A DNA stretch of 53,473 nt, taken from positions 1 to 53,473 of the forward strand of contig SBBG01000127.1 in the NCBI GenBank assembly GCA_005240065.1, read 5' to 3'. The notes beneath the pieces were generated by a model. That model made no database searches, had not been told where the DNA came from, and was given only the letters and a program-made list of their open reading frames with translations. This stretch comes from Gammaproteobacteria bacterium. GTDB taxonomy: Bacteria > Pseudomonadota > Gammaproteobacteria > Ga0077554 > Ga007554. The position numbers and the translations under genes were made by a program. Below are positions 32,052 through 42,669 of the stretch, piece by piece (within the stretch, counting starts at the first letter, position 1; every line of letters begins with the position of its first letter).

Positions 32052-32188
32052 GGGTTTCCGTGTTGGATGCTTGAGGCGATTAGCCGTGCGCGGTGGCGCA
32101 TAGACGGTTTATTATATCTCAGGGAAGGATTTCCTGAAAACGGCGCTTGGAGCCGTGCCCTGTCACAACAGAGCCCCTGCCCCAAAAA

Positions 32189-33832
32189 ATGTTCTCTCTG
32201 CTTCGAATGTTTCGCGTCAGAATCGCCATCGCCCTGGCGGTCTTGCTGTCATTGATATTGATATTGGCAGGCGCATTGTACTGGGGTATGCAACAAACCC
32301 AGTATCACTTTCATCGCAGCCAGCTCGCGCAAGCAGCGCTGGAGGCATACAGCCGCCTGCCGCTCGACGCCTATCTGCACTTCAATGAAATCATCGACGC
32401 GATACTGATCGACAGGTCGATCGGTGGTGGACAAGACAGTCAGGAAATGCGTGCGCGCTTGGAGGAATCCATGGAAAATGTCGCGGCCGCGGTACGGCGT
32501 GAGATCGCCTATCTCGAAAGTTTCGGCATGCTTGAGGAGCGCCAGGGGGAAATTCAGGAATTGGCGGATATTACCGCCATCAGGGCGATTATCCGCGCCA
32601 CTCTGGCATCGCTCGCTCAAGTTGGCTGGCTGCGCAGCCAGGGACATGAGGCGGAAGCACATGCGCTGCTCAACATGACGCTCCAGGAAATCATCGACAG
32701 GGAATTCCGCCCCATGGTGGAAGGGGCGATCGAGCGGGAACGAGCCGAAGCCGAACGAGAAGAACAGCGTGCCAACGAAACGGCGCGGCAGTTGCAAGCG
32801 ATAGCCACGGTGGTGGCCGTCTTATCAGCGTTATTCGCCGCTGTCGCGGGATTCGCCCTGTTCCGCAGTATCGATGAACCCATAAGGGTGCTGGTCTGGG
32901 GCACACGCAGGGTCGCCAAGGGGGATTTGAGCCATCGCATCCAGCTTGGAGGAAGAAACGAGTTCACCTATCTGGCGCGTAATTTCAATTTTATGGCGGC
33001 CAGCCTCGAGCAGGAGCACACACGTCTGCTTGAGATTCAGGCCGGCCAGGAAAAAAAGATCGCTCAACGCACCGCATCGTTATCCGAAGCCAATAACCAG
33101 CTTCGGCGCATCGACCAGACGCGCCGGCAATTCCTGGCGGACATCAGCCACGAGCTGCGCACACCGCTCACCGTCATTCGCGGCGAGGCGGAGGTGACGC
33201 TGCGCGGGTCCCGGCAAGACCAGGAGGAATACCGGACGGCCTTGCGCCGCATCGTCGATCTCTCGGAGCAATTGGCCAAGCTGGTCGACGACATATTTTT
33301 CCTGACCCGCGCGGATCTGGCGGAGCTGCGATTCGACACCACACTGGTGACGCTGAATGAATTGATGGCTGAAGCCAAAGAAAGCGCGCGTGTCCTGGCG
33401 CAGAAGAAGCGGCTCACGGTGACTCTGGACGCGCCCGAAGAGCGACTCATCATCGATGGCGACCCGCTGCGCCTGGGACAGTTGCTGCTGATCCTGGTCG
33501 ACAATGCCTGCCGCTATTCACACCCATCGGGCATGATCGCCTTGACGCTGGCGCGCGCCGGTGAATTTGCCCGCATCACCGTGGCCGATCAGGGCATCGG
33601 CATTCCCGAAGAGGAGCAAGGCGCCATTTTCGAGAGATTCTACCGGGGCACGCAGGCTCGCTGGGATGCGCCGGAAGGCACGGGATTGGGCTTACCCCTC
33701 GCTAAGGCCATCGTCAAGACCCATGGCGGGAATATTACCTTGAAGAGCGCATCGAGCGCGGGCACGATCATTACCATCGAATTACCATTACACAAGGACG
33801 AAAGGGATGGCAATGGCGATTCTGCTGGTTGA
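32189..33832 (+). CDS. HAMP-domain sensor histidine kinase
   Basis: 547 residues from ATG 32189. Two membrane helices (IAIALAVLLSLILILAGALY and LQAIATVVAVLSALFAAVAG) flank a helical periplasmic sensor of about 185 residues. HAMP is RSIDEPIRVLVWGTRRVAKG, HisKA has its histidine in LADISHELRTPLTVIRGE, and the ATPase domain has LLLILVDNACRYSH and GTGLGLPLAKAI. The sensor contains no known domain. The response regulator gene overlaps its 3' end by 26 bp. An upstream in-frame ATG (32147) would add a non-typical leader, and ATG 32207 is a further candidate. Confidence 0.9.
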   Translation: MFSLLRMFRVRIAIALAVLLSLILILAGALYWGMQQTQYHFHRSQLAQAALEAYSRLPLDAYLHFNEIIDAILIDRSIGGGQDSQEMRARLEESMENVAAAVRREIAYLESFGMLEERQGEIQELADITAIRAIIRATLASLAQVGWLRSQGHEAEAHALLNMTLQEIIDREFRPMVEGAIERERAEAEREEQRANETARQLQAIATVVAVLSALFAAVAGFALFRSIDEPIRVLVWGTRRVAKGDLSHRIQLGGRNEFTYLARNFNFMAASLEQEHTRLLEIQAGQEKKIAQRTASLSEANNQLRRIDQTRRQFLADISHELRTPLTVIRGEAEVTLRGSRQDQEEYRTALRRIVDLSEQLAKLVDDIFFLTRADLAELRFDTTLVTLNELMAEAKESARVLAQKKRLTVTLDAPEERLIIDGDPLRLGQLLLILVDNACRYSHPSGMIALTLARAGEFARITVADQGIGIPEEEQGAIFERFYRGTQARWDAPEGTGLGLPLAKAIVKTHGGNITLKSASSAGTIITIELPLHKDERDGNGDSAG

Positions 33833-34490
33833 AGACGACGAACGTATTGTTACATTCGTGAAACGCGGCCTGGAGGCCGAAGGTTATCTGATGGACGTGG
33901 CCAGCACTGGCAAGGAGGCGCTGCGGGTCGGGCGTTCCCCAGTATACGGCCTCATCATTCTCGACCTGATGCTGCCCGACATGGATGGCCGGGAAATCTG
34001 CCGCCAATTGCGAGCGGAAGAGGTGAGCACGCCGATCCTGATGCTGACCGCCATGGATGCGCTGGAAGACAAGGTGGGGGGCCTGCGGCTGGGAGCGGAC
34101 GACTATCTGACCAAACCTTTCGCCTTCGAGGAGCTATTGGCGCGCATCCAGGCCCTGCGCCGCCGCAGCCCTTCCTACACCAGCCAGTCGATCGAACTCG
34201 CGCTCGCCGACCTGACGCTGAATCGCGAAACGCGCCAGGTGCGGCGCGGCGATCACGTCATTGAACTCACGCCCAAGGAATTCGCCTTGCTGGAATATCT
34301 GCTGAGCGCCCCAGGCAGGGTATTCAGCCGCGCCAGGATTCTGGAAAATGTCTGGGGTTACAGCTCCGATCCGCTCACCAACGTGGTCGATGTCTATATG
34401 CGCAATCTGCGCCGCAAGATCGACGAAGACTCCGATAAACCGCTGCTCAAGACCGTCAGAGGCTTTGGCTACAAGATCGATGCGGATTGA
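33807..34490 (+). CDS. OmpR-family response regulator
   Basis: 227 residues. The receiver domain starts ILLVEDDERIVTFVKRGLE, with the phospho-aspartate in LIILDLMLPDMDG near 52 and the conserved Lys in DDYLTKPF. The C-terminal winged helix contains ELTPKEFALLEYLLSAPGRV and TVRGFGYKID. It overlaps the cognate kinase gene. ATG 33807 and ATG 33813 are both possible. Its targets may include the downstream SLC13 transporter and glycerate kinase genes, which lie on the same strand after a structured spacer. Confidence 0.93.
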   Translation: MAMAILLVEDDERIVTFVKRGLEAEGYLMDVASTGKEALRVGRSPVYGLIILDLMLPDMDGREICRQLRAEEVSTPILMLTAMDALEDKVGGLRLGADDYLTKPFAFEELLARIQALRRRSPSYTSQSIELALADLTLNRETRQVRRGDHVIELTPKEFALLEYLLSAPGRVFSRARILENVWGYSSDPLTNVVDVYMRNLRRKIDEDSDKPLLKTVRGFGYKIDAD

Positions 34491-34640: not shown

Positions 34641-34668
34641 ATCTCAAAATCACAAGGAGGTGAACGCC

Positions 34669-36147
34669 GTGTTCGCATCCCAGATAACAACACCTTCCGG
34701 CGCGGAATCCGCGACACGCTCGCAGCACGTTTACCGCCACATCGGGATCGGCGTGGCGGCCTTGACCTTGGCCGGGGGCATCTGGTTCGGATTACCGGAA
34801 CTGAGCGCCCACGCCCGCTGGGCCTTTATCATTTTTGGCCTGGCGGTGATCGGCTGGTGTTTCACCAGCATCAACGACACCTATATCGCGCTGGCCGCGG
34901 CGCTCGCCCCAGGCGTGATCGGCATCGATACGCCAAACGGGTTTTTCGAAGGCTTGGGCGATTCCATGATCTGGCTGCTGCTCGCGGCATTCATGATCGC
35001 CGCGGCGGTGAACGCCTCGGGTTTGTCGCAGCGGCTGACCATGGCTGTGGCGAAGGGCGCGCACTCGATCAAACATCTGTTCTTCGGCTTGACCGCCATC
35101 ATGCTGGTCACCGCCTTCGTCATCCCGTCGACCTCCGGCCGCGCCGCATTGATGATACCCGTGTTCATGGCGCTGAGCGCGGCGATCGGCAACCCGCGCA
35201 TCACCAGGGCGCTCGCCTTGCTCTTCCCCACCGTGATCCTGCTATCGGCGATCGCTTCCCTGTTCGGCGCGGGCGCGCATCTGGTGATGACCGGGATGCT
35301 GTGGAACATGACCGGCGAGCGCATCGGCTTTGGCGAGTGGATGATGTTGGGCCTGCCCTTCGCGCTGGTGAGTTGTTTCGTATCGGCGTGGGTCATTTTG
35401 CGATTATTCCTCACACCCGAAGAACGCAATCAGCCGCTCACGCCGGGGTTGACGGGCGATGTCGTCAAGGGCGCGGGAGCATTGAGCCCTCAGGAACGTT
35501 ACATGCTGATCATGGTAACCGCACTGGTGACGCTATGGGCGACCGAATCCCTGCACGGCATGAACAGCACGCTGGTGGCGGTGGTCGGCGCCCTGGCGGT
35601 CACCGCGCCGAGGTTTGGTGTGATTTCCTTCGCCGCAGCGATAAAGAAGGTCGAGTGGAATCTGCTCATCTTCATGGCCGCCACTCTGGCGCTGGGAGAG
35701 TTGCTGGTCGAATCGGGCGGCGCGAAATGGCTGGCGGAAAATGCTTTCGCGATGTTGCAAGGCGGCGCCGCATCATCCGCATGGCCGGTGATCTCGGTGG
35801 TCGCGCTGGTGTCACTGCTCTCGCATCTGCTGATCACATCGCGCACGGCGCGCTCCTCGGTGCTCGTCCCTATCGTCGTGCTGTTGGCCGTATCGCTCGG
35901 TTACGACCCCGCCGGCTTGGCATTTCTGTCCACGGTGGCGGCAGGTTTTTGCCTGACGCTCATGGTCAGCGCCAAGCCCGTCACAATGTTCAGTCAACTC
36001 GACATACCAACCTATACGCAACAGGATTTGTTACGCCTGAGCGCCATCTTGTTGCCCATCCATTTCGGCCTGCTAGTCGTTTTCGCCTTTCTGGTATGGC
36101 CGCTTCTGGGGCTGGATTTCACCGCCCAAACCACTCCCAAACCTTAA
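34669..36147 (+). CDS. SLC13/DASS-family transporter
   Basis: 492 residues with 11-13 membrane helices. Motifs such as FVIPSTSGRAALMIPVFMAL and LITSRTARSSVLVPIVVLL fit the divalent-anion:sodium symporter family, including the paired SNT-like substrate hairpins in altered form. I chose GTG 34669, which stands 8 nt after AAGGAGG; a GTG at 34660 overlaps that ribosome site. The glycerate kinase gene follows 17 bp later, so glycerate or a related organic acid is the likely cargo. That assignment rests on gene position. Confidence 0.82.
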   Translation: MFASQITTPSGAESATRSQHVYRHIGIGVAALTLAGGIWFGLPELSAHARWAFIIFGLAVIGWCFTSINDTYIALAAALAPGVIGIDTPNGFFEGLGDSMIWLLLAAFMIAAAVNASGLSQRLTMAVAKGAHSIKHLFFGLTAIMLVTAFVIPSTSGRAALMIPVFMALSAAIGNPRITRALALLFPTVILLSAIASLFGAGAHLVMTGMLWNMTGERIGFGEWMMLGLPFALVSCFVSAWVILRLFLTPEERNQPLTPGLTGDVVKGAGALSPQERYMLIMVTALVTLWATESLHGMNSTLVAVVGALAVTAPRFGVISFAAAIKKVEWNLLIFMAATLALGELLVESGGAKWLAENAFAMLQGGAASSAWPVISVVALVSLLSHLLITSRTARSSVLVPIVVLLAVSLGYDPAGLAFLSTVAAGFCLTLMVSAKPVTMFSQLDIPTYTQQDLLRLSAILLPIHFGLLVVFAFLVWPLLGLDFTAQTTPKP

Positions 36148-36164: not shown

Positions 36165-37352
36165 ATGTCTCTAAATATTCTGATCGCACCGTCCGGCTTC
36201 AAGGAAAGTCTGGGCGCCGATGAAGTCACGGACAATATCGCCGCCGGCATCTTGCGCGTCTTGCCCGATGCCGAAATCATGAAAGCGCCGCTGGTGGATG
36301 GCGGCGAAGGCTTCACCAAGGCACTGGTGAACGCGACGGGCGGCACCTTGCATCGCGCCACCGTCATCGGACCAGTTGGACAGCTCGTGGAATCTCATTA
36401 TGGTTTTCTTGGCGGCGACGGCCCCAAAACCGCAGTACTTGAAATGGCGGCCGCCGCCGGCCTGCGGCTGGTGCCGCGCGACATGCGTGACCCTTTGTGC
36501 ACCACGACCTATGGCGTGGGTCAACTGATCAAGGCGGCGCTCGATGGCGGTGCGCGACGGCTGTTGATCGGCTGCGGCGATTCGGGCACCAACGATGGCG
36601 GCGCCGGCATGGCCCAGGCGCTGGGCGTGCGCCTTCTGGACGCCGGCGGCATGTCGATCGGGCGCGGCGGCGGCGAACTGGCGCGCCTGGCGAGCATCGA
36701 TCCGTCAGGCCGTGATCCACGGCTGAACGAGGTAACGATCGACGTGGCCTGCAACTGGCATAATCTGTTGTGTGGGCCAAACGGCGTGGCAAGGGTATTC
36801 GGGCCGCAAAAAGGGGCCTCCGCAGAGACGGTGGAGACCTTGGCCAGGGCGCTGGACCGCTATGCGGCGGTCATAGAAAAAACCGCCGCAATCGACGTGC
36901 GCGAGATGCCCGGCGGCGGCGCTTCGGGAGGATTGGGGGCGGGTTTGCATGCCCTGCTGGGCGCCCGCCTGCATCCACGCTACAACATCGTGATGCAATA
37001 TCTCGAACTGGACAACCTGCTGGAACGCGCCGATCTGGTATTCACTGCGGAAGGGGCAATTGATTGCCAGACGCCGCGCGGGAAGATTCCGGCGGAAGTG
37101 GCGCGGCGCGCCAAGCGTTTCGGCCTGCCTGTGATCGCCTTGGCGGGGACGATCGGCACCGAGGCGAAGATCAATTTCGCCCACGGCATCGACGCCTACG
37201 CCAGTATCCTAGAATCCCCCTGCACACTGACCGAGGCCATCGAAAACGCCCCCCGGCTGCTACAGGACGTTACCGAGCGTGTCATGCGTCTGATTCTGAT
37301 CGGCCCCAGCGTCTTTGCCCATCCGCCGAGACAGACACCACTTGCGGCGTGA
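36165..37352 (+). CDS. Glycerate kinase (type I, GlxK/GarK-like)
   Basis: A 395-residue protein that phosphorylates glycerate. It begins LNILIAPSGFKESLGADEVT and contains VDGGEGFTKALV, GCGDSGTNDGGAGMAQALG and GGGASGGLGAGLHALLG, all typical of the GarK family. AAGGAGG precedes ATG 36165 by 7 nt. A much longer open frame running through the transporter gene is an artefact of high GC. Coupling to the SLC13 gene suggests uptake and use of glycerate as a C3 source, under the adjacent two-component system. Confidence 0.92.
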   Translation: MSLNILIAPSGFKESLGADEVTDNIAAGILRVLPDAEIMKAPLVDGGEGFTKALVNATGGTLHRATVIGPVGQLVESHYGFLGGDGPKTAVLEMAAAAGLRLVPRDMRDPLCTTTYGVGQLIKAALDGGARRLLIGCGDSGTNDGGAGMAQALGVRLLDAGGMSIGRGGGELARLASIDPSGRDPRLNEVTIDVACNWHNLLCGPNGVARVFGPQKGASAETVETLARALDRYAAVIEKTAAIDVREMPGGGASGGLGAGLHALLGARLHPRYNIVMQYLELDNLLERADLVFTAEGAIDCQTPRGKIPAEVARRAKRFGLPVIALAGTIGTEAKINFAHGIDAYASILESPCTLTEAIENAPRLLQDVTERVMRLILIGPSVFAHPPRQTPLAA

Positions 37353-37574: not shown

Positions 37575-37609
37575 TTGACTCAGGTAATTTTTGGGATTAA
37601 ATTCCCAAA
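37575..37609 (+). promoter_or_regulatory. Candidate promoter with overlapping operator for the P-loop/ABC operon
   Basis: TTGACT (37575-37580) and TAAATT (37598-37603) are 17 bp apart. The inverted repeat TTTGGGATTAAATTCCCAAA (37590-37609; 7-bp arms, 6-bp spacer) covers the -10 box. This is a classic position for a repressor site. The coding sequence starts about 100 nt downstream. Confidence 0.5.
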
Positions 37610-37711
37610 CAATAGAGGGAGGAAGATAACTAAAGTGCTCTTCCACAAAACGCCACCTTTGAAAATTGTTTTACCCATGGAATGTCCATAACCCAAGTAA
37701 AGGAGATCACG

Positions 37712-38770
37712 ATGAACATCTTACCCATCAGCCAGTCCCGTCTTTTGAGCGCCAAAATTTCCTATACCCCGCGCAACGTGAAACTCGGGTCGGCGGTAAA
37801 CCTGTTGACCGGCACCGGCGTCACCCCGCAGGCGGGCGACCTGGTGCTGGCGCGCGTGGAAAAAATCGGCCAGCATGCCGGACTGGAATTGACCAATGGC
37901 CGCCGCGCCGCGCTGTTCGCCGGTGACGAGATCGTGGTGTGCTATGGCAATCGCTACGCGCCCGATCAATTCGAAGCCGAGGTGCCGGGCGATCTGGCGG
38001 AGTGTCATCTGGTGGCGGCGGGCGGCATCGCGGCGCAGGCCTTGTCCTGGCACGCCAGCATGAAATCACCGACCGTCATCGCCCCTATCGGTCTACTGGC
38101 GAACGACCAAGGTCATCGCATCAACCTGTCTTGCGCGGCGCTGGAGAAATCGAGCCATCCGCAGTCCTTGCCTTACACGCTGGCCGTGGTCGGCACGGCG
38201 ATGAATGCCGGCAAGACCACCACGGCGGCGAATCTGATCCGCGGGCTGAGCAATGCCGGGCTGCGGGTGGGGGCCGCCAAGGTGACGGGTACCGGCTCGG
38301 GCAAGGACATCTGGTTCATGGGCGACGCCGGGGCGCGTCTTGCGCTCGATTTCACCGACGCCGGTTTCCCTTCCACCTTCCGCTCGTCACCGGCCGAGGT
38401 AGCGGGCATTCTTGACACTTTGACCCGCCACCTGGCGAAAGCCGGAATGGATGTAATCGTGCTGGAAGTGGCGGACGGTCTGTATCAAGCCGAGACGGCG
38501 GCGCTGCTGGATTCTCCGGTGTTCAGCAAAACCGTGGATGGCGTGATCTTCGCGGCGGGCGACGCGATGGGCGCCGCGGCCGGAGTGTCATGGCTGCGTA
38601 GCAAGGGTCTGCCGGTGCACGCCGTGAGCGGTTTGCTGACGGCTTCTCCGCTGGCGATCACCGAGGCCGCCAGCGCGACGGGCCTGCCGGTGTATGACAA
38701 GCGCATGCTGCGCGATGCCGCGATCTTGAGCGATCTCGGCGTGTGCTCCAGAATCGCGGCATCCGCCTGA
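37712..38770 (+). CDS. P-loop NTPase-like protein of unknown function (DUF1611-like)
   Basis: 352 residues. Residues 1-140 form a beta-rich N-terminal region I do not recognise. From about 158, LAVVGTAMNAGKTTTAANLI is an unusual Walker A, followed by AAKVTGTGSGKD and MDVIVLEVADGLYQAE, a layout like DUF1611, MobB or dethiobiotin-synthetase P-loop folds. It has no membrane segment or signal peptide. AAAGGAG lies 7 nt before ATG 37712. Its stop overlaps the ABC exporter start in TGATG, so translation is coupled. A role in nucleotide-dependent modification or loading of the exported substrate can only be guessed. Confidence 0.6.
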   Translation: MNILPISQSRLLSAKISYTPRNVKLGSAVNLLTGTGVTPQAGDLVLARVEKIGQHAGLELTNGRRAALFAGDEIVVCYGNRYAPDQFEAEVPGDLAECHLVAAGGIAAQALSWHASMKSPTVIAPIGLLANDQGHRINLSCAALEKSSHPQSLPYTLAVVGTAMNAGKTTTAANLIRGLSNAGLRVGAAKVTGTGSGKDIWFMGDAGARLALDFTDAGFPSTFRSSPAEVAGILDTLTRHLAKAGMDVIVLEVADGLYQAETAALLDSPVFSKTVDGVIFAAGDAMGAAAGVSWLRSKGLPVHAVSGLLTASPLAITEAASATGLPVYDKRMLRDAAILSDLGVCSRIAASA

Positions 38771-40476
38771 TGAACATCCCGCACACACTCGAAGGGCGCC
38801 GCCGCACCCTGTTCGCCCGCCTGGTCGGCAACGGACTGGCCCAGGCGGGAGCGGCAGTGGGCACGGCGTGGCTGGTCAAATGGGTGTTCGACCACATGCT
38901 CGCGCCGGGATCTTCCACGCCCGTCGCCATGGTGATCTGGGCGGCGGCCGGATTCGCCGCGGCGGCGGGTATCATCGCCTGGTTACGCCTGATGGAACGT
39001 GTCGACGCCGAGCGCCTGGGACAGGATTACGCGGCCGATGTCCGCATGGCGCTGTATGACCGCCTCGGTTCGATGGCGCCCCGCGCATTGCAGAAACGCA
39101 GCCACGGCGGCGTGGCGCTGCGCTTCGTCGGGGACATGACGGCGTTGCGACGCTGGGTGAGCCTGGGGTTGGCGCGACTGAGCGTGGCGGGCATGATGAC
39201 GGTAGCGGCCTTGGCGGCGCTGGCATTGATCCATTGGCCGCTGGCGCTGGCCATCGGCATGGTGCTTTGCGCCGGCGCCTCGGTCGCGCTCAGCCTGGGT
39301 GAGCGCCTGCGCATGGCGGCGCGCGAATCGCGGCGGCGTCTTTCCCATCTGGCCACGAACGTCAACGAGAAGGTGGCGACCATGGCGGTCGTGCAGATGT
39401 TCGGCCAGTCCGGCCGGGAACGCGAGCGCATGGCGCGTCAGGGCCGGCGTCTTCAGGAGGCGATGGTAGACAAGGCGCGCGTCGCCGGCAAGATCCTGGC
39501 CGTCACCGAAGCCACGGCGGCACTCGCATCGGCGGCGGCGCTGCTGCTGGGGGTGTTCGAAGTGGAGGCTGGGCGGGCCAGCATCGGCACGGTAGTGGCG
39601 GCCATGACCATCGTCGGAATATTGATGCCCCCGCTGCGCGATCTGGGACGCGTCCAGGAATATTGGCACGGGGCGCGAGTGTCGCGGGAAAAATTGCAGG
39701 AATTCCTTGACGCCCCCTCGCTGGTGGCGGAGGCGCCCGATGCGCCGGACCTTCGTTTGGGCGCAGGCCGCCTGGAATTCGATGCGGTAAGCGTGGCGGG
39801 AACATTGGAAGGGATCATCGCGACGGTGCAACCGAATACCGTGGTGACCGTGGTCGGCCCCAACGGCGCGGGCAAATCGACCCTGCTGTCCCTGGCGGCG
39901 CGCCTGATCGACCCCGAACGAGGCGCGGTACGCCTGGACGGCCAGGATCTGGCCGGGCACAGCCTGGCTTCGGTGCGTCGCGCGGTGGGTATGACGGGAC
40001 CTGATCTACCCCTGCTGCGCGGCACGGTGGAGAAAAACCTGCTCTATCGCTGGCCGGATGCACCGGCACAGGAAATCGCCCGGGTGTGGGCCTTGTGCGG
40101 CATCGACGAAGTGCTTGCGGACTTGCCGGAAGGCGCGAAAACCCGCGTCGCGGAAGGCGGCGTGGGTCTGTCGGCGGGGCAGCGTCAGCGCATCGCCCTG
40201 GCCCGCGCTCTGCTTGGCAATCCCCCCTTGCTGTTGCTCGACGAAGTCGACGCCAATCTCGACCCGAAGGCCAACGCGGTGGTGGACCGGGCGCTGGCCG
40301 GGTATCGCGGCACGATCCTGCGCGTCAGCCACCGGCTGGATCATGTGCGGAACGCCGACGTCGTCTGGTACCTGGCGGACGGACAGATACTGGAAGCCGG
40401 CCCCCCGGCAAAGGTATTGTCCGGCGATGGCCCGACCGCGCGATTCTTCCGCACCGGTCTGGCGGTGGCAAGTTGA
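38770..40476 (+). CDS. ABC exporter, fused membrane and ATPase domains, atypical Q-loop
   Basis: 568 residues. An exporter-type membrane domain of about six helices (20-300) is followed by an ATP-binding cassette. Walker A is VGPNGAGKST near 365, the signature LSAGQRQRIALARALL near 466, Walker B with catalytic Glu LLLLDEVDANLD near 487, and the switch His is in ILRVSHRLD near 519. The position of the Q-loop glutamine (GMTGPDLPLLRGTV) holds proline, and the usual aromatic A-loop residue is not evident. It would act as a homodimer or with an unseen partner. The start overlaps the preceding stop. The hydrolase gene overlaps its own stop. Confidence 0.87.
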   Translation: MNIPHTLEGRRRTLFARLVGNGLAQAGAAVGTAWLVKWVFDHMLAPGSSTPVAMVIWAAAGFAAAAGIIAWLRLMERVDAERLGQDYAADVRMALYDRLGSMAPRALQKRSHGGVALRFVGDMTALRRWVSLGLARLSVAGMMTVAALAALALIHWPLALAIGMVLCAGASVALSLGERLRMAARESRRRLSHLATNVNEKVATMAVVQMFGQSGRERERMARQGRRLQEAMVDKARVAGKILAVTEATAALASAAALLLGVFEVEAGRASIGTVVAAMTIVGILMPPLRDLGRVQEYWHGARVSREKLQEFLDAPSLVAEAPDAPDLRLGAGRLEFDAVSVAGTLEGIIATVQPNTVVTVVGPNGAGKSTLLSLAARLIDPERGAVRLDGQDLAGHSLASVRRAVGMTGPDLPLLRGTVEKNLLYRWPDAPAQEIARVWALCGIDEVLADLPEGAKTRVAEGGVGLSAGQRQRIALARALLGNPPLLLLDEVDANLDPKANAVVDRALAGYRGTILRVSHRLDHVRNADVVWYLADGQILEAGPPAKVLSGDGPTARFFRTGLAVAS

Positions 40477-41354
40477 AAAAATTCATCTCAGGGATAATCG
40501 CAATGCTTGCACATGCCGCCTCTGTCATGGCTGTGGAAACGGCCGTTCAGGACATCACACCGGACCCCAGCGTGGTATCGCGCCGGACGCTGCCAGATGA
40601 TCCTGGCCAGAGTTATTTTATCTATGTCCCGCGCCACGGCGGCGACAAGGCGCCGATTTTCGTCACCGTACACGGCATCTCGCGCAATGCGCGCGAACAC
40701 GCCGAGCGCTTCGCGCCTCTTGCTGAACGCTACGGCGCGGTATTGATCGCGCCGTATTTTTCAAAAGATCGCTTTCCCGATTACCAGCGGCTGGGGCGCA
40801 AAGGAAAAGGCGAGCGCGCGGACAGCGTGCTGGATCGCATCGTCGCCGACGTGGGCCGGCTGACTGGCGCCCGCACCTACAAGTTATACTTGTTCGGTTA
40901 TTCCGGGGGAGCACAATTCGTGCATCGGTACACTTTGGCGCACCCCGAACGCGTCGCGGGGCTGGTCCTGGGCGCGCCCGGCTGGTACACCTTTCCCGAC
41001 CCCGCGCTGAAATACCCCCAGGGTATCGGACCTTCCAAGCGCCTGCCGGACGTCGTGTTCGATCCGGCCCGTTTTCTCACGATACCCACCTGCGTGCTGG
41101 TGGGCGAACGGGATGTGCGGCAGGACAAAGCCTTGAACAAGGCGACGGCCATCGAACGACAGCAGGGAATAACGCGCCTGGAACGCGGCGAGCACTGGAT
41201 CGCCGCGATGACACGCGCCGCCCAGGCGCAGGGCTTCAAGACATCCTATACATTTCACACCCTCCCCCGCTCCCGCCACTCCTTCACGCAGAGCATGACA
41301 CGGGGCGGCATGGGGGAGCGCGTTTTTGATTGTCTGTTTGGAGAAAAAAAGTGA
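40473..41354 (+). CDS. Secreted alpha/beta hydrolase
   Basis: 293 residues from TTG 40473, which overlaps the ABC exporter stop in TTGA and follows GGTGG. This start yields a clean signal peptide (MKKFISGIIAMLAHAASVMA) that no ATG start in the frame provides so well. The mature protein has VTVHGISRNAREHAERFAPL (oxyanion side), the nucleophile elbow GYSGG with Ser144, and a late histidine in PRSRHSFTQ. It resembles poly-hydroxyalkanoate-depolymerase-like or feruloyl-type esterases, but the substrate is unknown. It is part of the P-loop/ABC/porin module. Confidence 0.8.
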   Translation: MKKFISGIIAMLAHAASVMAVETAVQDITPDPSVVSRRTLPDDPGQSYFIYVPRHGGDKAPIFVTVHGISRNAREHAERFAPLAERYGAVLIAPYFSKDRFPDYQRLGRKGKGERADSVLDRIVADVGRLTGARTYKLYLFGYSGGAQFVHRYTLAHPERVAGLVLGAPGWYTFPDPALKYPQGIGPSKRLPDVVFDPARFLTIPTCVLVGERDVRQDKALNKATAIERQQGITRLERGEHWIAAMTRAAQAQGFKTSYTFHTLPRSRHSFTQSMTRGGMGERVFDCLFGEKK

Positions 41355-41368
41355 AAAACTTGCCTGGC

Positions 41369-41438
41369 GTAGGGTGCGTCTCACGCACCATCTGTGCGGT
41401 GCGTGAGACGCACCCTATGAAACACCGGGTAATGACGA
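41369..41438. repeat. Copy 7 of the palindromic repeat, reaching into the porin gene
   Basis: The core 41369-41418 has 21-nt arms that match at 20 positions, ending CGCACCCTAT instead of CCCTAC. The flank GAAACACCGGGTAATGACGA (41419-41438) matches the right arm of copy 2 (21672-21692) almost base for base. Confidence 0.8.
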
Positions 41439-42559
41439 CCTGCTGGATCGCCACGGCCCTGGCCGTCACTGTTGCCACACCTGCCTTGGGGAAAGAAACC
41501 CCGCCCTTCACCTTCAAGCTCGGCGGACAGGTGATGTACGACGCCGCGTGGTATCAGGGTGATGGCGCATTGAAGACACAGACGGAAGGCTATACCCACG
41601 ACACCGGATTCCGCCGCGTGCGCCTGTCCGCGCGGGGAAGCGTGTATGGCGACTGGAATTACAACGTCACCTTGAGTTTCGCCGATACTCTCAACAATAT
41701 CAGCGACGCCGATCCCGCCGGCATCCGGCAAGCGTTTGTTTCTTATTCGGGATGGAAGGGCATCAAGGTCAAAGCCGGGCAATTCATCGAACCCTTCGGC
41801 CTGGAATCATCCACCAGCTCCCGCATCACCACGTTCATGGAACGCGGTCTGCCTTATGCGTTTTCCCCGGGCAGAAGCCTGGGCGCCAGCGTCTCCACCG
41901 CTCCCGTCAAAGGGCTGTACATGGAGGCCGGGATTTTCAAGGAAGACCTGCACTCGGCCGGAAATCTCGACCAGGCGTTCACCGGCCGCATCGCCTACGC
42001 CCCCATCGACACGAAGGGCTGGCTGGTGCATCTTGGCGCAGGGGCGAGCCACCGCCTTCCAGGTGACGGCACGGTGCGATACCGCACGCCCCCCGAAGCG
42101 GACATGGCGCCAAACTGGTTCAGCTCGGGGACGATCAGGAACGTCGACGATATTCTGCTCACCGGACTGGAAGCCGCCACGGTCATCGGACCGTTTTCCT
42201 TGCAGGGAGAATATATGCGCTCCCGCGTTGATCGCAACAACGGCAGACCGGAGCGAAACCTCGACGGCTACTACGTCTATGCCAGTTGGTTCCTCACCGG
42301 CGAATCGCGTCCCTACCGCGACGGCCGGTTCACGGCCATCGACCCCCAAGGCCGCTGGGGCGCCTGGGAATTGGCCGCACGCAACAGCGCCATCGACGAT
42401 GGCAACGGCCACCGCCTGAACGACATCACACTCGGCCTCAACTGGTACATCAACCAGCACCTGCGGCTGATGGCCAACTACGTGCGCGCCGTCTACGACA
42501 GAGTCTCAGCGCAAGGCAACGCCGACATCTTTCAAGTGCGCGGCCAGGTGGATTTTTAG
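41417..42559 (+). CDS. OprP/OprO-type outer-membrane porin
   Basis: 380 residues. Signal peptide MKHRVMTTCWIATALAV...ALG is followed by a barrel starting FKLGGQVMYDAAWY. GFRRVRLSARGSVYGDWNYN and VKAGQFIEPFGLESSTSS fit the phosphate-selective porin family, and the protein ends in phenylalanine. Anion passage is a family property; specificity cannot be read. The start ATG and the first seven or eight codons come from repeat copy 7. ATG 41432 is an alternative start but lacks the basic signal-peptide N-region. It lies 62 bp after the hydrolase stop, with a strong hairpin between, so it may or may not share that transcript. Confidence 0.85.
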   Translation: MKHRVMTTCWIATALAVTVATPALGKETPPFTFKLGGQVMYDAAWYQGDGALKTQTEGYTHDTGFRRVRLSARGSVYGDWNYNVTLSFADTLNNISDADPAGIRQAFVSYSGWKGIKVKAGQFIEPFGLESSTSSRITTFMERGLPYAFSPGRSLGASVSTAPVKGLYMEAGIFKEDLHSAGNLDQAFTGRIAYAPIDTKGWLVHLGAGASHRLPGDGTVRYRTPPEADMAPNWFSSGTIRNVDDILLTGLEAATVIGPFSLQGEYMRSRVDRNNGRPERNLDGYYVYASWFLTGESRPYRDGRFTAIDPQGRWGAWELAARNSAIDDGNGHRLNDITLGLNWYINQHLRLMANYVRAVYDRVSAQGNADIFQVRGQVDF

Positions 42560-42574
42560 ATTAAACTCCCGAAT

Positions 42575-42669
42575 GTAGGATACGTCTCACGCACCACTGA
42601 CGGATGGTGCGTGAGACGCGCCCTACATGGGGAAATAAAGCTGGAAAAGCAGATGAATTTGATTGCCGA
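42575..42669. repeat. Copy 8 of the palindromic repeat, with terminal arm
   Basis: The core GTAGGATACG...CCCTAC (42575-42626) is followed by an arm AAAGCTGGAAAAGCAGATGA and ATTTGATTGCC, the reverse complement of the left arm of copies 2 and 4. It lies between convergent porin and DMT exporter genes. Confidence 0.75.

Follow-up and report, generated by a model that had tools for sequence, protein, structure and literature searches.

A 53,473-nucleotide stretch of contig SBBG01000127.1 from a gammaproteobacterium (assembly GCA_005240065.1), hereafter the window, carries four adjacent forward-strand genes for a P-loop protein, an ABC-exporter-type membrane protein, an alpha/beta hydrolase, and an OprP/OprO-type porin, and the question raised by this locus is whether these genes form a system and, if so, what that system does. 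The four genes are a real module (or cassette), the order of which is kept across genera and classes and partly across phyla. Its function is a more tentative matter: the module might serve to synthesise a small anionic amide derived from an amino acid and to release it, a reading to which we give somewhat less than an even chance. The parts are members of known superfamilies, and the module itself is seemingly undescribed, as none of the scanned family libraries names the four genes as a system and no description was found in the open-licence literature on the component families, in which no search was aimed at the module itself.

The P-loop protein gene (37712–38770) has an ATG start with AAAGGAG immediately upstream and encodes 352 residues, comprising an N-terminal beta domain (residues 1–150) and a P-loop domain resembling those of BioD, CTP synthase, and DUF1611 proteins (residues 151–352). 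Its TGA stop codon shares one base with the ATG start codon of the ABC gene (TGATG), which occupies 38770–40476 and encodes a 568-residue protein with a transmembrane domain fused to an ATPase domain. This gene shares four bases with the hydrolase gene (40473–41354; 293 residues), which has a TTG start within the sequence TTGA and encodes a signal-peptide-like N-terminus. The porin gene spans about 41417–42559 and encodes 380 residues, again with a signal-like N-terminus; a TTG-initiated porin frame at 41330 in a mechanical list of open reading frames reads through a palindromic repeat and is over-extended, the porin start being taken as about 41417. An earlier note on this DNA had placed the four genes here on this strand and described the start-stop overlaps of the first three, and all of this was found as described.

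Conservation was assessed in a collection of 84,980 species genomes containing at least 581 relatives of the P-loop protein, the best 80 of which were analysed (P-loop identity 47–82%); being the best-scoring relatives, these 80 loci lean toward close kin. Loci truncated by contig ends were excluded from the denominators of the neighbour counts and from the ATPase-state labels, and eight repeat loci (L071, L072, L081, L098, L108, L121, L130, and L142) were kept among the 80 and omitted from the BLAST clustering, the residue conservation, the tree, the hydrolase N-terminus test, and the ABC counts. An ABC gene lies downstream of the P-loop gene in 62 of 75 testable loci and, as a control, upstream in 1 of 75; the corresponding numbers are 46/69 and 2/68 for the hydrolase and 21/62 and 0/64 for the OprP-type porin. 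The P-loop protein, a putative enzyme, and the membrane protein are accordingly the commonest pair as judged from gene neighbourhoods, with the hydrolase and the porin as recurrent further parts. All four genes occur in order in 20 of the 80 loci, every one of them from Pseudomonadota (Alpha-, Beta-, and Gammaproteobacteria), and the fetched neighbourhoods have the same order and strand in several families. Overall, judged by their record titles, the 80 loci span ten phyla, 53 of them belonging to Pseudomonadota; the P-loop and ABC genes occur together in eight phyla and the P-loop gene with a downstream hydrolase gene in six. Conserved order across genera, which the earlier note had proposed as a check, is therefore present and extends across classes.

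Co-occurrence was also examined within the class, in which 31 of 369 genomes have a P-loop match and 17 of these matches exceed 270 bits (cassette-type). A hydrolase of at least 150 bits, a threshold picked after the scores were seen, is present in 11 of the 17 cassette-type genomes and in none of the 352 others (Fisher 3e-17); without the four positives of the window's family, the number is 7/13 (Fisher 1e-11). Weak hydrolase matches in G173 and G287 (64–68 bits) were set aside in this test. These Fisher values are inflated by the relatedness of the genomes, whereas the spread over families is independent of them. In the window's own order, the P-loop gene is found in 6 of 8 genomes, that of the window included. 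A chance neighbourhood was rejected in view of the gene order, the upstream controls, and the co-occurrence within the class.

The AlphaFold model of the window P-loop protein is of high confidence (mean pLDDT 95). The fold of its residues 151–349 is that of dethiobiotin synthetase, CTP synthase, and TM0796, with Z-scores of 14–16, rmsd values of 2.8–3.8, and 166–193 aligned residues among the matches listed; for TM0796 (PDB 2g0t), Z is 15.9 and rmsd 2.8 over 168 residues. In BioD, a Walker lysine, a second lysine, and metal-binding acids have functional roles. A weak BioD profile alignment (E 0.0008) brings K168 and K190 of the window protein to both BioD lysines and an acid to within one column, E252 lying beyond the alignment; K168, T169, K190, D199, D205, and E252 are all invariant in 103/103 aligned sequences. 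The protein reaches no Pfam or NCBIfam cut-off, and the same is true of ten relatives scanned singly: its Pfam matches to MobB, CbiA, and DUF1611 all fall below cut-off, and the NCBIfam equivalog for dethiobiotin synthetase scores 13.9 against a cut-off of 83.3. In these ten relatives, DUF1611_C is below cut-off or gives no match. Weak DUF1611 matches occur in 21 of 33 aligned relatives, and single members of these 33 may pass the MobB or DUF1611 cut-offs (best E-values 1e-8 and 6e-7, respectively).

The N-terminal domain, modelled alone, is likewise a confident beta domain (residues 1–150; pLDDT 94). It has no match to any Pfam family, and its fold search gave a best Foldseek E-value of 1.2 and, among the Foldseek-ranked chains aligned, a best Z of 3.8, obtained with UmuD and the LexA/lambda-repressor C-terminal domains. 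The earlier note had called this domain unrecognised and had suggested modelling the protein; the model agrees with that description, in that a BioD/CTP-synthase fold was obtained for residues 151–349 and no convincing match for the N-terminal domain. The protein therefore exhibits similarities to two known groups, but there are also differences. It shares with dethiobiotin synthetase and the CTP synthase amidoligase domain the fold of residues 151–349, and in the weak profile alignment two of its lysines fall on both BioD lysines; it differs from them in the additional beta domain and in missing the BioD equivalog cut-off. It shares with DUF1611 proteins such as DgcN the fold of TM0796, which we take to be a DUF1611 protein, and the weak DUF1611 matches of its relatives, and differs from them in its own score below cut-off, its N-terminal domain without a Pfam match, and its other gene neighbours. 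Reportedly (Yu et al., in 2023), DgcN is a DUF1611 protein and a D-glutamate N-acetyltransferase.

Relatives outside the cassette provide the lead on chemistry. In eight genomes of the class, a copy of the P-loop protein about 30% identical to the window protein (L060–L067) belongs to a sister clade, that is, to one side of a branch with support 99 in a quick tree of P-loop proteins. According to BLAST clusters, this copy lies between argG and argC in seven of the eight genomes; in L066, argG is not listed and argC and the later genes are present. A gene-by-gene check of the L067 operon found ArgG, ArgC, ArgB, and ArgH, together with N-acetylornithine carbamoyltransferase over cut-off, ArgR below its cut-off, and ArgD below its subfamily cut-off. 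None of the eight arginine-type genomes has an ArgA over cut-off or an ArgJ, whereas 13 of 19 comparison genomes, searched with stricter E-value limits than the eight, have ArgA or ArgJ and 6 lack both (Fisher 0.0014). Because of its position in the arginine operon and this lack of ArgA and ArgJ, the arginine-type protein may be regarded as a candidate N-acylglutamate synthase. A third clade (L068–L070) adjoins M20 hydrolases, and the two neighbours scanned have their best scores with hydrolase and glutamate carboxypeptidase models, below the cut-offs. The arginine clade, the M20 neighbours, and DgcN together point to N-acylation of acidic amino acids as the family chemistry, which we infer by extension for the cassette clade.

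The membrane protein of the window scores 83.6 bits with ABC_membrane and 94.3 bits with ABC_tran in Pfam, and its ATPase motifs are intact (Walker A GPNGAGKST, signature LSAGQ, and Walker B LLLLDE). It is similar to MsbA/CydD-type ABC exporters in that the transmembrane domain is fused to the ATPase domain, but it falls far below the MsbA and CydD cut-offs, and the ATPase of some relatives is lost or degenerate. Walker A is kept in 52 of the 62 loci in which the protein extends into the ATPase region. Five loci, among them Blastomonas sp. AAP53 and Novosphingobium taihuense, have the transmembrane domain only (L091, L113, L116, L124, and L131), with no room for an ATPase because the hydrolase gene starts directly after it, and the motifs are degenerate in about seven others, including Vibrio, Bowmanella, and Asticcacaulis (L095, L112, L117, L119, L122, L125, and L135). 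On the quick P-loop tree, at least three changes account for the transmembrane-only state and at least four for any ATPase decay, the latter count using a broader list of 13 degenerate loci and the tree count being blind to loss versus gain. The transmembrane residues E81, R92, D122, and R188 are kept in 14/14 decayed copies, L114 and L140 included. In L105 and L127, an MFS transporter gene follows the P-loop and hydrolase genes in place of the ABC gene, and in L100 and L120, no ABC gene stands directly after the P-loop gene, the other neighbours there being mostly unscanned. Comparison of the loci shows that some lineages have lost the ATPase half and that in two loci an MFS transporter has taken the place of the entire protein. 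The exporter that the earlier note had called atypical is, in the window, a recognisable ABC_membrane/ABC_tran fusion, and in some relatives its ATPase is lost or degenerate.

SbmA, which has the ABC transmembrane fold without an ATPase and imports peptides on the proton gradient (PMC13316013), offers a parallel, since an ABC transmembrane fold without an ATPase is also what would be expected for the five transmembrane-only relatives. However, SbmA is an importer, and in Pfam these relatives give ABC_membrane in three of five cases (one just below cut-off), no family at 0.001 in two of five, and no SbmA family match in any of the five.

The window hydrolase matches Esterase_PHB (PF10503; 24.6 against a gathering cut-off of 23), and it does not reach the NCBIfam model for PHA depolymerase (43.2 against 150). 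In the PDB, LpqC (8e-23) and poly(aspartic acid) hydrolase-1 (PahZ1; 2.6e-19 and 6e-18) come nearest to it, and the latter enzyme acts on poly(aspartate), the beta-amide bonds of which it cleaves (PMC4456602). The cassette hydrolases are related to both LpqC and PahZ1 over most of their length, but form a group of their own by score. Identity with PahZ1 itself was rejected, as L122, a cassette hydrolase from Novosphingobium, matches PahZ1 at no better than 2e-14 and 7e-13. Among 61 sequences, S144 is conserved in 60, D214 in 59, and H269 in 60, and from the fold these residues presumably form the catalytic triad; R152 (61/61), R235 (60/61), and R238 (61/61), located in the motifs QFVHR and QGxxRxxR, are conserved to a similar degree. 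This conservation of the triad and the arginines fits an anionic substrate.

A hydrophobic, signal-like N-terminus is present in the hydrolases of the window and five relatives (L037–L041), and by a crude hydrophobicity test in 13 of 59 hydrolase domains, that of the window not counted, two of the 13 being second, lipoprotein-like hydrolase copies in Bdellovibrionales (L106 and L110). Domains below 190 bits and L150 were excluded from the 59, L103 was one of the 59 but too short to score, and the test, which considers hydrophobicity only, is affected by a misplaced domain start in L049, L080, L083, and L103. The hydrolase is thus probably cytoplasmic in most lineages. The secreted hydrolase of the earlier note accordingly applies to the window's lineage and to a minority elsewhere, and its scheme of export followed by cleavage is not general, because most hydrolases look cytoplasmic.

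Porin_O_P (PF07396) matches the whole window porin (244.9 against a cut-off of 20.9; E 2e-72; profile positions 1–370 of 370), and a porin also lies downstream of the hydrolase in relatives, in line with the OprP-type assignment made earlier; the protein is also over the Porin_4 cut-off (41 against 27). The resemblance to OprP/OprO porins has its limits, in that no phosphate genes were recognised in the module and that Porin_4- and OprB-type porins substitute elsewhere. Porin_4-type porins occupy the slot in five alphaproteobacterial loci (L093, L113, L116, L120, and L124), OprB-type porins occur in the operon of four cyanobacterial loci (three scanned), and in Pseudoalteromonas (L114), a Porin_4-type gene is found in an adjoining divergent cluster. 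Altogether, a porin from any of the three clusters is nearby in 30/80 loci; the three families are distinct but may be related, since the window porin also passes with Porin_4. Porin exchange within one slot suggests that outer-membrane passage matters to the module.

A mechanism in four steps could account for these features. The cytoplasmic P-loop enzyme would N-acylate or amide-link an acidic amino acid or peptide, and the resulting compound would cross the inner membrane by way of the membrane protein, which would be ABC-driven or, in certain lineages, would work with no ATPase of its own. Trimming of an amide or ester bond would fall to the LpqC/PahZ1-like hydrolase, acting in the periplasm in the window's lineage but in the cytoplasm in most others, and the porin would pass the product through the outer membrane. 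Synthesis and export are favoured because the fused exporter is the commonest form, because five Gram-positive/Thermomicrobiales loci (L084, L099, L118, L123, and L132) have the P-loop and ABC genes alone, with neither hydrolase nor porin, and because amide ligases (in two Bdellovibrionales loci) and an Asp/Asn hydroxylase cluster are encoded nearby. In L106 and L110, a Mur ligase (scanned in L106) and a RimK-like ATP-grasp protein (scanned in L110) are encoded around the cassette by separate genes, each of which clusters in both loci, and the Asp/Asn beta-hydroxylase cluster adjoins six alphaproteobacterial loci, three of them checked with Pfam.

Several observations weigh against this proposal. 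Extending the proposed chemistry to the cassette from relatives about 30% identical is a weak step, and the DUF1611_C score of the window protein (PF07755) is 18.2 against a Pfam gathering cut-off of 25. In four of the eight arginine-type genomes, weak matches (20–32 bits) to the GNAT portion of ArgA lie elsewhere in the genome, and a separate short synthase is therefore possible there. ArgA is present in 17/17 cassette genomes and ArgJ in 15/17; since all 17 have ArgA, the cassette enzyme is dispensable for arginine, and an arginine role for it was rejected. The synthetic-enzyme neighbours are lineage-specific, PGA_cap being found in one of four cyanobacterial loci, and in six actinobacterial loci (L133, L136, L141, L143, L145, and L148), no ABC, hydrolase, or porin gene adjoins the P-loop gene. 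In addition, 45 of 58 scorable hydrolase domains of other loci have no hydrophobic N-terminus, and dedicated porins in operons usually serve uptake.

The last two points lead to the main rival, which we take seriously while considering it somewhat unlikely, namely uptake and breakdown: an anionic oligomer or conjugate would enter by the porin and be imported by the ABC-fold protein or the MFS transporter, the hydrolase would cut it, and the P-loop enzyme would N-acylate the freed amino acid in the manner of DgcN. This rival draws its weight from the porins, from a hydrolase that is cytoplasmic in most lineages as far as its N-terminus indicates, and from the precedent of SbmA, which the transmembrane-only versions of the module recall; furthermore, an anion symporter gene and a glycerate kinase gene adjoin the module in the window, and a D-glutamate pathway that has been described as catabolic counts dgcN among its key genes (PMC12363236). 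However, the Walker A motif is kept in most of the ABC proteins, the P-loop/ABC pair occurs without hydrolase or porin in the five loci named above, and the Mur ligase, the ATP-grasp protein, and the hydroxylase encoded nearby are enzymes of synthesis; nor did the recurrent neighbours, many of which are unscanned, include a recognisable substrate-binding protein. Puromycin producers mask, export, and unmask their product, and a similar scheme, in which a metabolite is N-acylated by the P-loop enzyme, leaves through the transporter, and is unmasked by the secreted hydrolase, might operate in the window's lineage. The signal-like hydrolase N-termini of the window and L037–L041 and the lipoprotein-like second hydrolases of the two Bdellovibrionales loci would agree with such a scheme, which we nonetheless judge quite improbable, given the predominance of hydrolases with no hydrophobic N-terminus. 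A non-metabolic role for the P-loop protein, as an ATPase or regulator serving the membrane protein, seems very unlikely: it is the commonest partner of the ABC protein and, in loci with no ABC ATPase left, could drive or gate the membrane domain, but relatives with the same conserved residues are found in arginine operons, beside M20 hydrolases, or with no adjacent ABC gene.

Three further candidates were rejected or set aside. A general link to Mur ligase and ATP-grasp enzymes was rejected, as a search for Mur ligases in 19 genomes that have a cassette-type P-loop gene and 19 that lack one found matches in 37 of the 38, none above 49 bits; they occur in both groups and are consistent with the cell's own Mur enzymes, and the link therefore stays local to the two Bdellovibrionales loci. 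A link to cyanophycin was set aside, its basis being a generic ABC match (171 bits against 880). Anti-phage defence was rejected because PADLOC gave no match for the P-loop protein, the hydrolase, or the porin; the ABC protein matched, over its ATPase domain, mad3 (91 bits) and three weaker models, which is read as a generic ATPase match.

The synthesis-and-export proposal can be set within a broader reading that unites a new P-loop superfamily of amino-acid N-acyltransferases or amide synthetases, a clade within it that replaces ArgA and ArgJ, and a cassette clade whose transporter loses its ATPase. Taken jointly, these elements make a rather unlikely whole. If it were true, the arginine clade would be a new class of N-acetylglutamate synthase in some Gammaproteobacteria, repeated ATPase loss would have turned an ATP-driven exporter into a secondary one, and a widespread unnamed pathway would release an acidic amino-acid amide to the surroundings, its porin slot having been refilled from different porin families. 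The analysis defines a widespread module, with four genes in proteobacteria and the P-loop/ABC pair in eight phyla, and it links an enzyme family, the N-terminal domain of which has no assigned fold, with a transporter whose motor has been lost in several lineages. The loci thereby provide a natural series for the study of how ATP-driven exporters become secondary transporters, and the first step of arginine synthesis, missing in some Gammaproteobacteria, has a testable candidate in the sister clade.

Upstream of the module, and regarded as context rather than as members, the forward strand of the window carries genes for a two-component sensor and regulator (32147–34490), a DASS-type anion symporter (34660–36147), and a glycerate kinase (about 36192–37352). 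Regulator or sensor genes lie within 4 kb in 22/80 loci. In three genomes of the window's family (L043, L044, and L045), a second cassette type, with a P-loop protein 53–55% identical, is found next to the genes for the DASS symporter and the glycerate kinase, a pair that in the window adjoins the first cassette type; a cassette swap is possible. DUF5666-type genes are located beside the cassette in ten loci (L037, L039, L040, L042, L046, L053, L077, L078, L094, and L149), and DUF6502-type genes in eight of these ten, both as clusters with one member each checked against Pfam. In Alphaproteobacteria (L093, L119, L120, L122, L124, L140, and others), genes for an extracytoplasmic function (ECF) sigma factor, a Pfam-less protein, and a subtilase recur nearby, again as clusters with one member each scanned.

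A promoter-like site (TTGACT-17-TAAATT) precedes the P-loop gene at 37575–37603 on the forward strand, its first base being the one at which the earlier note lets the module begin; it is a consensus match only, and a weak one, because three such matches were seen in the region against 1.2 expected in shuffles. The palindromic repeat between the hydrolase and porin genes (41370–41417; no strand) is REP-like and found genome-wide, with 60 exact copies of its half-site GGTGCGTGAGACGCACCCTA. Within the window, 11 half-sites with at most three mismatches were counted against 0 expected; the repeat copies at 41370–41417 and 42576–42625 bracket the porin gene, and seven more near matches lie between 19815 and 30336.

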